Below are positions 3,109 through 7,157 of a stretch of DNA of 7,157 nucleotides, one piece after another. The notes beneath the pieces are model-generated. The model was given only the letters and a program-made list of their open reading frames with translations. It searched no databases and had not been told where the DNA came from. Position 1 is the first letter of the stretch. The number at the start of each line of letters is the position of its first letter. This DNA is from Clostridia bacterium. GTDB lineage: Bacteria > Bacillota_A > Clostridia > Christensenellales > Borkfalkiaceae. Location: NCBI GenBank assembly GCA_017507595.1, contig JAFWAM010000162.1:1-7157 (forward strand), written 5' to 3'. The position numbers were made by a program, and so were the translations under genes.

Positions 3109-3231
3109 CTGAAAATTTTGATATTACTTAAGTGAAATTTATTAATATTCGTTAGATAATTAATATATAAATAAAATCTGCTTTAAAGCATGATTTTTAA
3201 ATTAATGCGTGCCTTTTTCTTGCAAAAATAT
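3109..3231. other. AT-rich gap between MarR gene and membrane-protein promoter
   Basis: No gene is visible here. The stretch is far more AT-rich than the flanking genes. It holds a perfect 12-base palindrome, TGCTTTAAAGCA (3179-3190), and overlapping TTAATAT/ATTAATA repeats (about 3139-3169). These could be protein-binding sites or an UP element for the promoter at 3073-3108, but in such AT-rich DNA short palindromes arise easily. Confidence 0.35.
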
Positions 3232-3261
3232 GGCGATAAACGACTTATAGGCCCACTTTTT
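3224..3261 (-). terminator. Terminator-like element after MarR gene; copy A of the 30-nt motif
   Basis: On the minus strand, 27 bases past the MarR stop, the sequence reads AAAAAGT, GGGCC, TATAAGTCGTTTATCGCC, then ATATTTTT. A weak stem can form (TGG-C with G-CCA, plus ATAA with TTAT inside, and the A-run with the T-run), ending in TTTTT (3228-3224). It is a poorer hairpin than the two related elements after the DUF2804 gene and after dut, but it shares the conserved loop sequence and lies in the same orientation relative to its gene. Termination is plausible rather than certain. Confidence 0.5.
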
Positions 3262-3287
3262 GCTTTAGCGACCTTTTGCCTGTCCAA

Positions 3288-3737
3288 CTATTTGCGATCG
3301 TAATCGCCGCAAATTGCTTCAAGATTGTCGCAAATTGAGGCAAGGCTTTTGTAAAGGACTTCTCTTGCATCATCGGAAACGAACCTTCCCGCGGCGGCCT
3401 CAATACGGTCAATTTTTTGGGCAAGTCTTTTGCCAAGATTGGCGCCCTTGTCCGTAAGACGGATGACGTCCTGGTATCTTTTTGCCTTTGAGGTGTTGCA
3501 ATAAAGATACCCCTCCCCCTCAAGATGCTTTATGGCACGGGAAATGTTGGACTTATCCTCAGAGCTTATGTCGCAAAGCTCCTTGGCGGTAATCCCACCC
3601 GTCTTATATAAATAATACAGACAGGTCACGTGGGAGCTTTTAAGGTTAAACTCCGCCATTTCTTCCGTTTTGATTTTGTGTATGGCCCTGCCGATTTTTG
3701 CAATCAGCACGGTAAAAGCCGTAAACCGTGTTTCCAT
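3288..3737 (-). CDS. MarR-family winged helix-turn-helix transcriptional regulator
   Basis: Dimeric DNA-binding repressor of the MarR family, 149 residues, the family's usual length. N-terminal helices (about 1-45) would form part of the dimer interface. The winged helix covers about 47-98: a helix with ITAKELCDI (49-57), recognition helix DKSNISRAIKHLEGEGYL (61-78), and the wing with basic residues K84, K86, R87 ending in VIRLTDKG (91-98), which is the classic MarR wing signature. C-terminal helices (100-149) complete the dimer interface. The start at 3737 has GGAG (3748-3745) seven bases upstream; a GTG start nine codons earlier would fall within the operator palindrome and lacks a binding site. 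A consensus promoter and a perfect palindrome over the transcription start imply autorepression. Cysteines at 39, 55 and 80 could sense oxidation, but nothing in the sequence proves a ligand. It appears to be a single-gene unit. Confidence 0.92.
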   Translation of the reverse strand: METRFTAFTVLIAKIGRAIHKIKTEEMAEFNLKSSHVTCLYYLYKTGGITAKELCDISSEDKSNISRAIKHLEGEGYLYCNTSKAKRYQDVIRLTDKGANLGKRLAQKIDRIEAAAGRFVSDDAREVLYKSLASICDNLEAICGDYDRK

Positions 3738-3750
3738 AATCCTTCTCCAC

Positions 3751-3770
3751 CTTGTTGTAATCACAACAAG
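3751..3770. promoter_or_regulatory. Probable MarR operator (perfect inverted repeat)
   Basis: CTTGTTGT, four spacer bases, ACAACAAG: a perfect 8+8 inverted repeat of 20 bases, the size and symmetry expected for a MarR dimer site. It begins 13 bases upstream of the MarR start codon and covers the predicted transcription start (about 3767), so a bound repressor would block the promoter at 3774-3802. I found no second copy in the window. Confidence 0.75.
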
Positions 3771-3773
3771 ATA

Positions 3774-3802
3774 AATATATCACACTTGGTAGCCGTTGTC
3801 AA
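3774..3802 (-). promoter_or_regulatory. Promoter of the MarR gene
   Basis: TTGACA (3802-3797), a 17-base spacer, then TATATT (3779-3774) preceded by TG (TGATATATT), an extended -10. This is a near-consensus sigma-A promoter at optimal spacing. The predicted start, about 3767, falls within the adjacent palindrome. Confidence 0.8.
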
Positions 3803-3868
3803 TATCTTTGATCGTCTTTTTTATTTTTTTATATAAAAGTTGTTGCGTTATCCTTGGTAAATGGGCGC

Positions 3869-3917
3869 AAAAAAACCGCCAAAAGACGTCGATAACCGAC
3901 CTATTGGCGGACTTTTT
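3869..3917 (-). terminator. Intrinsic terminator of the DUF2804 gene; copy B of the 30-nt motif
   Basis: Minus-strand hairpin with perfect arms CCGCCAA (3910-3904) and TTGGCGG (3882-3876), followed directly by seven T residues (3875-3869). It lies 16 bases past the DUF2804 stop codon. The upstream AAAAAGT run lets it work partly in the other direction too. The 21-base loop contains ATAGGTCGGTTATCG, the conserved core shared with the elements after the MarR gene and after dut. Confidence 0.88.
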
Positions 3918-3926
3918 AGTTTTTTA

Positions 3927-4958
3927 TCATTTGTTAAAGACCCTTTCGGCAAAGCCAAGCTTGTCTTTTACCTCAAGCCGTGTGCCATCGTCTAAAATAA
4001 CGAAGCCGTTCATTTTACCAAAGACCTGATGCTGCTTGCTGCAAAGAACGAGAAGATCAGTATTGTCACACCTGTCGATAATGGGCGTAAACTCAACGTT
4101 AAACCTGCCCTCGTTATCGGTAAAGGTCCACTTGGACATATAATCGTATTTTTTGCCGTCGGCGGTCTTGGGAATATTGAAGGTTACCTTGTCAAGCTTG
4201 TGACAAACGCCGTCTAAAAAGATCATATTTTCGGAGGCCTTTGAGGTATCCCCAAATCCGTAACCGATGTTCCAGCCGAATCTTCTGCCGTCGTCAAGGT
4301 AGCAGGAAAGGCTGCCCCAATACCAAACGTTTTTATAGGTCCACACCCCCCTGCCCCAATCCAGGGTACCAAGGGTGTCGTCAACTGAAAAGTTGTAGAC
4401 CTCGTCGCCGATGGAAACAAAGCCTTCGGCACGCATGCAGTTTATCTTGGCGTTGTAATAAAAATGCTTTGGCTTTAAAAAGGGCGTGGCAATAACCATT
4501 TTGTCGTGGGGCTCGTCAGTTAAAACAAGCTCACACTTAAAATCCTTGCCGGGCTGAAAATCCTTGTAGAAAAATTTAAGGATGCGGCGGGATTTTTCCT
4601 TGATAAAGCTGCCCTCAACCTTTTTGGACTTATAAAAAATATCTCCCTTTTCGTAAGAGGGCGGAAAGTTCAGCTTGCCCCGCGACATAAGCTTGATTTC
4701 GCTTTTGGTGGTGTAGGACGGGTTTTCAAAGTCCAGATAGCTTGCCGACGCCATGGACATATAGCTGTTGTCGTCAAGGGTAAGGGCCACCGCCCTTTTG
4801 CCGTCGGTTATCAGGTAATAATCCCACTCTTTGATGCGGAGCTTCCCTGCCTTTATCATTTTTCGGTCATAAATTTTAACAAGGCCCGTAGAATACCCTG
4901 CCTCACAAAGATTGCCTGCGTGATTTAAAAGATTGCCGGGCGTAAGCTTATGTTCCAT
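3927..4958 (-). CDS. DUF2804 domain-containing protein
   Basis: A 343-residue protein of the DUF2804 family, whose biochemical function is not established. The family assignment rests on the central Trp/Gly-rich block: LDWGRGVWTYK (199-209), WYWGS (212-216) and GWNIGYGFGD (228-237), followed by a C-terminal region with DRCDN (295-299), HQVFGKMNGFV (310-320) and GFAERVFNK at the end. The domain covers nearly the full length, and there is no signal peptide or membrane helix, so it is probably cytoplasmic. The start at 4958 is preceded by GGGGGG (4963-4968), an unusually G-only ribosome binding site; a TTG four codons upstream is less likely. It is a single-gene unit, with a promoter at 4983-5011 and a strong terminator after it, divergent from dut. 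The neighbourhood gives no firm clue to function. Confidence 0.9.
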   Translation of the reverse strand: MEHKLTPGNLLNHAGNLCEAGYSTGLVKIYDRKMIKAGKLRIKEWDYYLITDGKRAVALTLDDNSYMSMASASYLDFENPSYTTKSEIKLMSRGKLNFPPSYEKGDIFYKSKKVEGSFIKEKSRRILKFFYKDFQPGKDFKCELVLTDEPHDKMVIATPFLKPKHFYYNAKINCMRAEGFVSIGDEVYNFSVDDTLGTLDWGRGVWTYKNVWYWGSLSCYLDDGRRFGWNIGYGFGDTSKASENMIFLDGVCHKLDKVTFNIPKTADGKKYDYMSKWTFTDNEGRFNVEFTPIIDRCDNTDLLVLCSKQHQVFGKMNGFVILDDGTRLEVKDKLGFAERVFNK

Positions 4959-4982
4959 AATTCCCCCCAATGGTTTTTTATT

Positions 4983-5011
4983 ATTGTAACACGAAAAATC
5001 CTCTTTTGCAA
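4983..5011 (-). promoter_or_regulatory. Promoter of the DUF2804 gene
   Basis: TTGCAA (5011-5006), a 17-base spacer, then TACAAT (4988-4983) preceded by TGT, an extended -10. The -35 box matches the consensus at four of six bases and the -10 at five of six. The predicted start, about 4976, gives a leader of about 18 bases. Confidence 0.6.
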
Positions 5012-5017
5012 TACCGA

Positions 5018-5036
5018 TTTGAAAATTTTATTCAAA
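5018..5036. promoter_or_regulatory. Inverted repeat between divergent promoters, possible operator
   Basis: TTTGAA, seven spacer bases, TTCAAA: a 6+6 inverted repeat just upstream of the DUF2804 -35 box and about 70 bases upstream of the dut -35 box. It could be an operator, but the surroundings are AT-rich and no second copy was found, so this is weak. The rest of 5037-5106 holds only A/T-rich sequence with no gene. Confidence 0.25.
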
Positions 5037-5106
5037 ATAAGTTAAAAGAACGATAAAAGTCCTTAAAGTTATTTTTTAAAACCAGCTTTTAATTTTACTT
5101 AACCAT

Positions 5107-5136
5107 TTGACAAGCCCCTTGATTTATTGGTATAAT
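5107..5136 (+). promoter_or_regulatory. Promoter of dut
   Basis: Perfect TTGACA (5107-5112), an 18-base spacer, then perfect TATAAT (5131-5136) preceded by TGG, an extended -10. It is the strongest-looking promoter in the window. The predicted start, about 5143, lies just before TAGGAG (5144-5149), the ribosome binding site of dut, so the leader is very short (about 18 bases). Confidence 0.85.
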
Positions 5137-5160
5137 TTATACGATAGGAGCTTTATTTTT

Positions 5161-5607
5161 ATGATTGAAAAACACCCTGTGAAAATCAAAAAGTTGACCA
5201 ATAGGTCGATTATCCCCACTTTTGGCACGGAATTTTCCGCCGGGGCGGACTTGTACTCCGCCGGTGACGACGTCACTATTTCGCCCAACAAAACCGCCTT
5301 GATACCAACGGGGCTTTCGGTTGAAATACCCGTTAGCTTCGTGGGGCTTATCTTTGCGAGAAGCGGCCTTGCAACAAAAAGCGGCCTTGCCCCTGCCAAC
5401 AAGGTGGGCGTAATTGACAGCGACTACCGTGGGGAGGTGCTTGTCGCCCTACACAACCACTCTGACGAGGCGCGCACCGTAAAGTACGGCGACCGCGTTG
5501 CCCAGCTTGTCATCGTGCCCTATCTTACCCCGGAGTTTGTCTTGTCCGACGACCTTACCCAAACGGAGCGCGGCGAAGGCGGCTTTGGCTCCACGGGCAA
5601 AAATTAA
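5161..5607 (+). CDS. dut: Deoxyuridine 5'-triphosphate nucleotidohydrolase (dUTPase)
   Basis: Trimeric dUTPase that hydrolyses dUTP to dUMP and pyrophosphate, keeping uracil out of DNA and supplying dUMP for thymidylate synthesis in the cytoplasm. It has 148 residues, the usual length. All five family motifs are present in order: SAGADLYS (26-33), ARSGLA (66-71), GVIDSDYRGE (83-92) with the catalytic Asp at D86, GDRVAQLV (110-117), and the C-terminal RGEGGFGSTG (137-146) that closes over the active site. No inactivating change is visible. The start at 5161 follows TAGGAG (5144-5149); a longer frame opening at 5107 would start inside the -35 box and is rejected. It is a single-gene unit with a consensus promoter and its own terminator, convergent with pgk. 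Codons 10-19 overlap a copy of the 30-nt repeat found in nearby terminators. Confidence 0.97.
   Translation: MIEKHPVKIKKLTNRSIIPTFGTEFSAGADLYSAGDDVTISPNKTALIPTGLSVEIPVSFVGLIFARSGLATKSGLAPANKVGVIDSDYRGEVLVALHNHSDEARTVKYGDRVAQLVIVPYLTPEFVLSDDLTQTERGEGGFGSTGKN
5188..5217 (+). repeat. Copy D of the 30-nt motif, inside dut
   Basis: AAAAAGT, TGACC, AATAGGTCGATTATCCCC: the same layout as the elements in the terminators at 3869-3917 and 5678-5727. It shares the 14-mer ATAGGTCGATTATC exactly with the element downstream of dut, and CCAATAGGTCG plus a following CTTTTGGC with the DUF2804 terminator. It encodes the normal-looking dUTPase segment KKLTNRSIIP, so coding need may explain part of the similarity. 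Confidence 0.6.
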
Positions 5608-5609
5608 GA

Positions 5610-5629
5610 TTTGACCTTTTTTTGTCAAA
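5610..5629 (+). other. Small hairpin just after dut stop
   Basis: TTTGAC, an eight-base pyrimidine-rich loop (C then T's), GTCAAA: a 6+6 perfect inverted repeat starting three bases past the dut stop. It has no T-run after it on the plus strand, so it is not a classical terminator. It may protect the mRNA 3' end or be chance. Confidence 0.3.
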
Positions 5630-5636
5630 AACGGCT

Positions 5637-5657
5637 AAAAACGCCCTTTTTGGGGCG
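5637..5657 (-). terminator. Possible second minus-strand terminator in the dut/pgk gap
   Basis: Read on the minus strand, CGCCC (5657-5653), a short A-rich loop, GGGCG (5646-5642), then TTTTT (5641-5637). It would catch transcripts that pass the pgk terminator at 5795-5825. The stem is only five G/C pairs, so efficiency is uncertain. Confidence 0.4.
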
Positions 5658-5677
5658 AAAAAGCTTCAAAAATCATT

Positions 5678-5727
5678 AAAAAGTCCCTCTATAGGTCGAT
5701 TATCGCCCTTTTTTGAGGGATTTTTTT
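5678..5727 (+). terminator. Intrinsic terminator downstream of dut; copy C of the 30-nt motif
   Basis: Arms TCCCTC (5684-5689) and GAGGGA (5715-5720), then seven T residues (5721-5727); the upstream AAAAA (5678-5682) can extend the pairing with the T-run. The 25-base loop carries TATAGGTCGATTATCG, the conserved core. It stands about 75 bases past the dut stop, in the dut orientation. The remaining 5728-5794 is AT-rich with nothing recognised. Confidence 0.8.
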
Positions 5728-5850: not shown

Positions 5851-7083
5851 TTATGCCTTTTCGTTTAAGCAAGCAATACCGGGGAGAACTTTACCCTCGA
5901 AAAGCTCTAAAGAAGCGCCGCCACCTGTGGAGATGTGGGTCATCTTATCGGCATAGCCAAGCTGTGCAACAGCCGCAGCGGAGTCGCCACCGCCGATGAT
6001 GGTCGTGCCGTTAGCTTCTGCAAGGGCCTGTGCCATTGCCTTGGTACCGGCGGCAAGGGTCGGGTTTTCAAATACGCCCATGGGGCCGTTCCAGATAACG
6101 GTTTTAGCGCTCTTGATAGCGGAAGCAAAAAGCTCACGGCTCTTTTCGCCGATGTCAAGACCCTGCATATCCTGTGGGATTGCGTCTGCGGAAACGGTTG
6201 TTACCTCAACGGGTGCGTCGATGGGGTTGGGGAAGTCCTTGCAAACTACCGTGTCAATGGGAAGAAGAATAGTCTTGCCTAAAGCCTTAGCCTTTTCAAG
6301 CATCTGGTTGCAGTATTCAATCTTGCTGTCGTCAACGAGGGAGTTACCAACTTCCTTGCCGACGGCCTTCATAAAGGTGTAAGCCATGCCGCCACCGATA
6401 ATAAGTGTGTCGCATTTTTCCAAAAGGTTGGAAATAACGTTAAGCTTATCGGCAACCTTTGCGCCGCCCAAAACTGCAACGAAGGGGCTAACGGGGTTTT
6501 CAAGGGCGTCTGCCATAACTGAAAGCTCCTTTTCGATAAGGAAGCCGCAAACTGCAGTATCAACGAAGCCGTATTCAACGATGGCGGCCGTTGACGCGTG
6601 GGAGCGGTGTGCCGTGCCGAAGGCGTCGTTTACGTAAACCTCTGCAAACTGAGCAAGCTTACGGCAGAATTCCTCGTCACGCTTTTCCTCGCCGGCGTTG
6701 AAGCGGGTATTTTCCAAAAGAACGATTTCGCCCTCGCCGATTTCAGCAACCTTTTGGCAAGCATCCTCGCCAACGGTGTCGGTGGCAAAAGCAACCTTAA
6801 CGCCGGGAAGAAGCTGCTTGAGTCTTTCAGCAACGGGCTTTAACGTGAACTTTTTAAAGTCCTTTTGTGCCTTTTCAATATACTGGTTGGTAGCGGCCTC
6901 TCTTTCAGCCTCGGGCAAAGCCTCAACAGCGGCCTTTTCCTTTTTGTTTAATTTTATTTTAGCGTCGAGAACGTTATGGGGCTTACCGAGGTGAGAGCAA
7001 AGTATGACCTTTGCGCCCTGGTCAAGCAAATACTTGATGGTGGGAAGGGCACCGTTGATACGGTTTTCGTCGGTGATTCGCAT
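5851..7083 (-). CDS. pgk: Phosphoglycerate kinase, N-terminus missing
   Basis: Glycolytic kinase passing phosphate from 1,3-bisphosphoglycerate to ADP in the cytoplasm. The 410 visible residues carry nearly the full family signature: SHLGKP (30-35), ENTRF (124-128), HRSHAS (159-164), GGAKVADK (206-213), GGGMAYTF (230-237), WNGPMGVFE (331-339), GGGDSAAA (364-371) and TGGGAS (386-391). Two oddities are visible. The protein opens at RITDENRI, so the preceding 20-25 residues of normal PGK, with the VRVDFNVP segment that binds 3-phosphoglycerate, are absent; stop codons TAA TAG lie in frame just upstream, and the DNA there encodes an IlvB fragment in another frame. Also, residues 36-78 are a charged helical insertion between SHLGKP and [10 protein letters not shown] not found in standard PGKs. 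The ATG at 7083 is merely the first available start and is probably not native. As written, the product would likely be inactive; a chimeric assembly is the simplest explanation. Confidence 0.93.
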
Positions 7084-7156
7084 TACCTATTACACGGTCA
7101 CTAAAACGTGCACCGAGGGTAATCAGTAAGTCACAGCTGGATATACCAAGGTTGGA
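7022..7156 (-). CDS. Acetolactate synthase large subunit fragment, joined out of frame to pgk
   Basis: In the minus-strand frame beginning at 7156, the translation has [17 protein letters not shown], which matches the highly conserved CDLLIA-GARF-DRVTG segment of acetolactate synthase (IlvB family; thiamine diphosphate enzyme making acetolactate for branched-chain amino acids). About 26 residues (7156-7079) look genuine, from the middle of a normally ~550-residue protein; the frame then runs into pgk sequence in the wrong frame and stops at 7024-7022. The 5' part, if any, lies outside the window. IlvB and PGK are not known as a fusion, so this reads as a junction between two unrelated genes, by misassembly or by rearrangement. 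Confidence 0.75.
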
Positions 7157-7157
7157 A

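Follow-up and report, generated by a model that had tools for sequence, protein, structure and literature searches.

A dispersed 36-bp element with helically phased flanks in a family of Clostridia, a candidate site of chromosome bending or wrapping

In this study, we analyzed a 7,157-nt stretch of DNA from a Clostridia bacterium (GenBank assembly GCA_017507595.1, contig JAFWAM010000162.1; hereafter the window) and identified four copies of a 36-bp repeat that is dispersed through the genomes of a group of relatives. Based on its helically phased flanks and its conservation, we consider it probable (roughly 70%) that this element acts as a double-stranded DNA site at which the chromosome is bent or wrapped, whichever protein reads it. 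An original prediction, made from the window alone, had named three of the copies and placed them at the 3' ends of transcription units. It offered a structured RNA or protein-binding motif, a dispersed repeat doubling as a terminator, and a DNA uptake signal as explanations.

The 36-bp core and its distribution

The three named copies proved to be real, each containing an exact ATARGTCGNTTATC, and we found a fourth inside a gene. The copies are as follows.

Element 1: 3225..3260, minus strand, 36-bp core 3' of the MarR-family gene; exact ATARGTCGNTTATC at 3235-3248; matrix score 43.6 bits
Element 2: 3881..3916, minus strand, between the 3' end of the DUF2804 gene and the MarR-family gene; exact ATARGTCGNTTATC at 3891-3904; 40.5 bits
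Element 3: 5189..5224, plus strand, within the dut coding sequence on the sense strand; exact ATARGTCGNTTATC at 5201-5214; 35.5 bits
Element 4: 5679..5714, plus strand, in the convergent intergenic region between dut and pgk; exact ATARGTCGNTTATC at 5691-5704; 43.3 bits

With up to 2 mismatches, ATARGTCGNTTATC matches the window 6 times, compared with 0.23 matches expected from shuffles. The window was scored with a matrix built from the genome of a relative (G002). After the four sites, the next best reached 12.6 bits, and the maximum of 200 Markov resamplings was 17.5 bits. The heptamer AAAAAGT, already noticed in the original prediction, precedes the core at equal distance in all four copies.

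The iterated matrix gave the 36-bp consensus AAAAGTNSGNCTATARGYCGRTTAWCGnnnnTTTTT, in which AAAAGT is followed by S-rich bases, CTATARGYCGRTTAWCG, four loose bases and TTTTT. We found 157 elements above a 9-bit threshold in 400 kb of G002, compared with 5 in a Markov control of equal length; of these elements, 142 reach 20 bits or more. The same matrix detected 106 elements above 20 bits in 400 kb of a second relative, G001, and none in the reversed sequence. The commonest centers are AGCCGA (25/142) and GGTCGA (18/142) in G002 and AGCCCG (53/106) in G001. The copies in a further genome, G038, are degenerate (29 in 176 kb).

The pattern AAAAGTNNGNCTATARGYCGRTTAWCG, allowing up to 3 mismatches, occurs 7 to 425 times in 14 of 61 genomes (the family of G002) and 0 to 2 times in the other 47. 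Matches are about evenly divided between the strands in the former. Here, carriers are genomes with at least 7 matches, a threshold set after the counts were seen, with 2 as the next highest count; the weakest carriers are G022 with 7 matches and G009 with 14. The genome-wide count that the original prediction had proposed as a check was far above chance, with 344 matches in G002 and 425 in G001, and reversed AAAAGTNNGNCTATARGYCGRTTAWCG gave 0 in all 61 genomes. A set of 297 genomes from the order contained, besides G002 with its 344 matches, four genomes with a single match and 292 without any (reversed pattern, 0-2). The samples contain 0.27-0.36 copies per kb, and extrapolation gives about 400-600 copies per genome in G001 and G002 and fewer in the other carriers.

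When bacterial and archaeal genomes were scanned for AAAAAGTNNNNNWATARGTCGNTTATC, 108 stretches were returned. The 80 listed are all metagenome-assembled genomes titled Clostridia or Clostridiales bacterium, many of them from the ruminant gut. Viral contigs gave no match to the element, and no description of it in Clostridia was found in the titles and opening lines of abstracts in the openly licensed literature.

In four non-carriers (G016, G019, G058 and G032; 200, 80, 318 and 156 kb sampled), 10-mer searches gave no comparable dispersed motif, nor did gapped-word searches in G016, G058 and G032; since limited stretches were sampled, a rare dialect could have been missed. In the positive control, G002, pieces of the element were recovered clearly by 10-mers and, among other words, by gapped pairs. 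A word family, TTTAAGNCGTTAG, was found in G016, G058 and G032. Although similar to the center of the element, it has one base fewer and lies within a longer, often clustered repeat. There (L130, L133, L183, L197, L213), it is followed by about RCAAGC, AGGCTCG and the hairpin CTAACC-TTTTT-GGTTG, an arrangement that we take to be somewhat like integron attC sites.

Phased flanks, conservation and genomic position

We found that A+T content oscillates on both sides of the core, alike in coding, intergenic and other-genome copies. The period is about 11.3 bp (11.2-11.7 bp by fit, depending on the range used), and the oscillation reaches beyond 75 bp on either side of the core, spanning at least 150 bp. 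Outside the core, the copies have phase in common, not sequence. At 28-100 bp from the center, G002 has amplitudes of 0.081 and 0.072, and G001 of 0.107 and 0.096. Control sites in G002 matched for their weak/strong (W/S) base pattern gave 0.031 and 0.011 (142 sites) and 0.014 and 0.013 (400 sites), and W/S-matched sites in three non-carriers gave 0.014-0.024. In the 248 pooled copies the phase is coherent on both sides, and the amplitude, which is 0.14 near 30 bp, declines outward to about 0.03 at 190 bp; the values farthest out are at the noise limit. Helically phased flanks of this kind point to DNA bending or wrapping.

Furthermore, the copies occupy conserved positions. G001 and G002 have 115 reciprocal best orthologues with a median protein identity of 58%. 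In these orthologues, 17 coding copies share codon position and strand, while 10 are present only in G001 and 15 only in G002. With about 0.2 coding copies per kb, sharing on this scale is far beyond chance. The orthologue pairs with a shared copy are 32-75% identical. Nucleotide identity over the shared copies is 0.84-0.91 in the two central bins, compared with a mean of about 0.54 beyond 30 bp. Identical residues have identical codons at a rate of 0.93-0.95 centrally, compared with a mean of about 0.46 (0.33-0.65) beyond 30 bp, a contrast that is inflated because the pairs were chosen for a shared site. An intergenic copy is present in both genomes in 4 of 37 conserved gene neighborhoods, in one genome only in 2 and 2, and in neither in 29 (associated, p = 0.003). 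Taken together, these comparisons make selection on the element at the DNA level well supported.

Gene positions in 400 kb each of G002 and G001 were taken from a simple purpose-made gene caller. Coding copies make up 74 of 142 in G002, where two copies at contig edges are unclassified, and 41 of 106 in G001 (pooled, 115/248). The element favors gene ends, avoids divergent (promoter) regions and is indifferent to strand between genes. Its density, partial overlaps included, is 2.87 per kb in convergent regions, 1.34 in tandem regions, 0.28 in divergent regions and 0.17 in coding sequence (CDS). Tandem intergenic copies lie 44 with transcription and 45 against it, or 47 with two partial overlaps (p = 1.0 and 0.83). 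The anticipated bias toward 3' ends is thus visible in the convergent enrichment, but the anticipated bias in orientation is not seen.

Pairs less than 150 bp apart are depleted in G002 (1 observed, 12.2 expected) but not in G001 (7 versus 9.2), so that no exclusion footprint can be claimed. Close pairs tend to be 98-102 bp apart from center to center, about nine helical turns, and are mostly in the same orientation (G001 contig C1, L280-L299; L018, L072, L089). A phase test on pair distances is weak (28 pooled distances; some of the loci may overlap with the G001 or G002 stretches).

The genes next to the four copies in the window are as follows.

MarR-family gene: 3288-3764, minus strand, assigned by Pfam
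DUF2804 gene: 3927-4970, minus strand, assigned by Pfam
dut: 5161-5607, plus strand, dUTPase
pgk: 5851-7083, minus strand, convergent with dut

Element 3 is located in the 5' part of dut, where its codons encode KKLTNRSIIPTF. The protein over this copy aligns gaplessly to solved dUTPases (KKLTNRSIIPTF versus KKLSEKAVIPTR). Since this copy is inside dut, the set is not confined to the 3' ends of transcription units. The 3'-end placement claimed by the original prediction holds for the three named copies and fits the enrichment at gene ends, but does not extend to the dut copy or to the many coding copies elsewhere.

Three other features of the window were noted. An inverted repeat, TTGTTGTAATCACAACAA, at 3752-3769 overlaps the start of the MarR-family gene and is a possible operator for its autoregulation. 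An open frame of 468 residues (2-1405) is membrane-protein-like by eye and has no Pfam match at E up to 0.001. Near the window edge (7083-7157), the pgk frame matches PGK only from profile position 26, with the first residues missing or in another frame.

Candidate proteins reading the element

We infer, tentatively and at somewhat less than even odds, that the core is read by a divergent HU/IHF-like protein or by another architectural protein. HU/IHF-family members were found in 42 of the 61 genomes (48 matches in all). The remaining 19 genomes gave no match, which is unusual unless it results from incomplete assemblies. A tree was built from 46 of the 48 matches, excluding two partial ones. 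In it, a divergent HU/IHF-like clade, with support 100/99, includes a protein from all 14 carriers and from 8 of the 47 non-carriers. In this paralogue, GFGTF is replaced by GFATF. Its association with the element is strong (Fisher p = 1.4e-8, uncorrected for kinship); kinship explains part of it, as carriers also cluster on the GyrA tree.

The best PDB match of the G002 paralogue is single-chain IHF. Three paralogues were scanned; for two of them, from the carrier G036 and the non-carrier G016, IHF alpha is the best model. The core itself has an IHF-like layout, with an A-tract, 7 nt, TATARG, 4 nt and TTA. Compared with the IHF consensus, WATCAANNNNTTR with an upstream A-tract, WAT and TTR are at the right spacing and CAA is replaced by ARG. 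The element resembles IHF/HU sites in core size, in parts of the layout (A-tract and WAT-N7-TTR) and in the co-occurring divergent protein. It differs from them in its conserved GC-rich center, in its long phased flanks and in a paralogue that scores below the IHF family cut-offs.

Several observations weigh against bending or wrapping by such a protein. With the IHF-alpha model NF001401, the three paralogues score 56.9, 71.4 and 66.3 bits against a cut-off of 111 and are not IHF-alpha orthologues by that test, and the G002 paralogue is marginally best to HU-beta (57.9 versus 56.9 bits). The paralogue is also present in eight genomes that lack the sites (G016, G032, G047, G058, G023, G039, G051, G061), and no dialect of the element was found in the stretches sampled from three of them (G016, G058, G032). 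Classical IHF needs no long phased flanks, and the RGYCGR center is outside the IHF consensus. A periodicity of about 11 bp is also present genome-wide, away from the element, in carriers and non-carriers, and may account for part of the phasing and for its long tail. Finally, the pooled coding copies are antisense more often than sense (75 versus 40, p = 0.0014), a bias that is unexplained.

DNA gyrase is another possible reader. The element would then be a set of hard-wired strong gyrase sites at gene ends, where positive supercoils collect, with 4-bp staggered cleavage at the core center and the phased flanks wrapped around the GyrA C-terminal domains. We regard this as unlikely. The E. coli gyrase motif is a symmetric 130-bp pattern with a 36-bp center and flanks of 10.75-bp GC periodicity (PMC6379681). 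The element also has a 36-bp core and symmetric phased flanks, but its phasing extends past 130 bp and its fitted period is not 10.75 bp. The E. coli motif is described as degenerate, and gyrase as drawn to downstream regions by transcription rather than by hard-wired sites (PMC6379681).

The preferences of type II topoisomerases include -4G/+8C (consistent across the enzymes tested), -2A/+6T and +1G/+4C (PMC12324340). With the dyad set by flank symmetry, 3 of these 6 positions agree at the element center: -2A/+6T and +1G are present, whereas -4G/+8C and +4C are absent. The right arm of the strong gyrase site of phage Mu is reported to be essential (PMC10052514). With T = 10.75 and the dyad placed where expected, this arm is in the A+T phase of the element (r = 0.32, top 1.2% of Mu arms; phase 3.75 versus 4.76 bp), an agreement reached after four periods and five dyad positions were tried. 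The left arm does not fit. In a scan with the full profile, the highest-scoring position no more than 8 bp from the annotated Mu cut ranks 1906 of 36578 (z = 1.65), which is not significant.

Several element pairs are only 98-102 bp apart, and the sites are restricted to a clade whereas gyrase is near-universal. Of the 11 carriers examined, just 7 have an acidic insertion, 30-48 residues long, in the C-terminal domain of GyrA (G004, G006, G025, G036, G041, G052, G062; L264-L270). The non-carriers G016, G032, G047 and G058 have an insertion of 7-8 residues elsewhere in this domain. A tree of 21 GyrA sequences requires two changes of the carrier label; with this, and with the insertion limited to 7 of the 11 carriers, GyrA lends no clear support. 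Overall, the element is like known gyrase sites (the E. coli Topo-Seq motif, the Mu site and the bacterial interspersed mosaic element BIME-2) in its 36-bp center, its symmetric GC/AT flank periodicity near 11 bp and its location near gene ends. It differs from them in its strong lineage-specific center consensus and in sites individually kept by selection. If gyrase were the reader, this would be, to our knowledge, the first known case of genome-wide hard-wired gyrase sites.

Other explanations and the proposed role

The element could also be a DNA uptake signal, like the uptake signal sequence (USS) or DNA uptake sequence (DUS), kept by biased uptake of self-DNA as in Pasteurellaceae and Neisseria. 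We judge this quite unlikely. The genomic distribution fits: many copies lie on both strands, in coding and preferentially in non-coding DNA, the dut copy (the one gene checked) arose without an insertion, positions are stable between distant species, and the flanks are AT-rich. The passages on USS describe occurrence on both strands, a non-coding preference with many coding copies nonetheless, an origin without insertion, stable positions and AT-rich flanks (PMC1626085). The AT-rich motifs given there are two, both to one side of the core, and phased flanks on both sides, as in the element, do not figure in these passages (PMC1626085).

Full uptake machinery was not found. ComEC is present in 57 of the 61 genomes and in 13 of the 14 carriers, but non-carriers have it as often. 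Its open frames in those 13 carriers are 457-540 residues long. No full-length T2SSE/ComGA/PilB ATPase (PF00437) was found in any of the 14 carriers, whose genomes may be incomplete. Strong full-length matches occur in 6 of the 61 genomes, all non-carriers, and the carriers G004 and G038 have partial matches barely over the cut-off (33 and 26 bits). ComEA (TIGR00426) did not exceed its cut-off in any of the 21 genomes searched, 11 of them carriers, a cut-off passed by just 5 of 14 control genomes. Weaker ComEA matches occur in all 21 genomes, the best of each genome in open frames of 440-759 residues, and are provisionally taken for another protein. The lack of a full-length pilus ATPase and of ComEA over cut-off thus weakens the uptake explanation. 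The element is similar to USS in its spread over genes and strands, its stable positions and the absence of an insertion in dut. It differs in density (USS occur at about 1 per kb), in phased flanks over at least 150 bp and in the uptake machinery, which was not found.

The first option of the original prediction, in the form of a fixed-loop RNA element or intrinsic terminator located at the 3' ends of mRNAs, is very improbable. The terminator hairpins described for the DUF2804 copy and the dut/pgk intergenic copy are indeed predicted to fold strongly (-18.6 and -18.8), while the MarR copy and the copy within dut fold less well (-11.5 and -11.8). The re-paired arms were recovered between genes, where 133 copies have a mean folding energy of -8.30 compared with -7.17 (sd 0.18) after swapping arms, a modest excess. 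They were not recovered in the 115 coding copies, where arms are not paired beyond chance (-7.39 versus -7.25, sd 0.20). Since the pairing excess is found in intergenic but hardly in coding copies, re-paired arms are real but secondary. Arm pairing and termination are, on these predicted folds, a secondary use of a minority of intergenic copies.

Enrichment at gene ends agrees with a terminator. However, nearly half of the copies are in genes, in both orientations and mostly antisense, and intergenic copies have no strand preference, so an mRNA 3'-end element, and with it an RNA element as the primary role, was rejected. A search of the window against Rfam gave no match at E up to 1, and the original prediction did not recognize the motif. 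The option of a dispersed repeat that at times doubles as a terminator fared better: the repeat is clade-specific, selected and enriched at gene ends, and its intergenic arms pair better than swapped ones.

A small mobile repeat scattered by transposition, such as a repetitive extragenic palindrome (REP) or a miniature inverted-repeat transposable element, would explain dispersed, clade-specific and numerous copies with some pairs about 100 bp apart, but is extremely improbable given a dut copy in a gaplessly aligning protein, positions common to distant orthologues, copies that beyond the core are alike in phase rather than sequence, and an occurrence that is not extragenic only. Like REP/BIME, the element is repeated, enriched at gene ends and able to act as a terminator; unlike them, it has nearly half of its copies in coding sequence, and its dut copy does not derive from an insertion.

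If the element is a bending or wrapping site, a chromosome would have as many as several hundred such fixed points, spaced most densely between convergent gene ends. Bound by the divergent HU/IHF-like paralogue, the core would be bent sharply, with the phased flanks curving in register. At places where supercoils driven by transcription meet, this would set the apex of a supercoiled loop or a wrapped complex. Some of the intergenic copies, a minority, would serve additionally as terminators.

In its fullest form, this proposal describes a Clostridia chromosome-organizing system new to the literature, in which an HU/IHF-like protein co-evolves with hundreds of phased 36-bp sites that pin supercoils at gene ends, in conserved positions and with species dialects of the core. 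We consider this whole picture somewhat unlikely. If it is true, the HU family in Clostridia would gain a sequence-specific member, and a lineage with sequence-written sites would make the sequence-encoded placement of supercoils directly testable.

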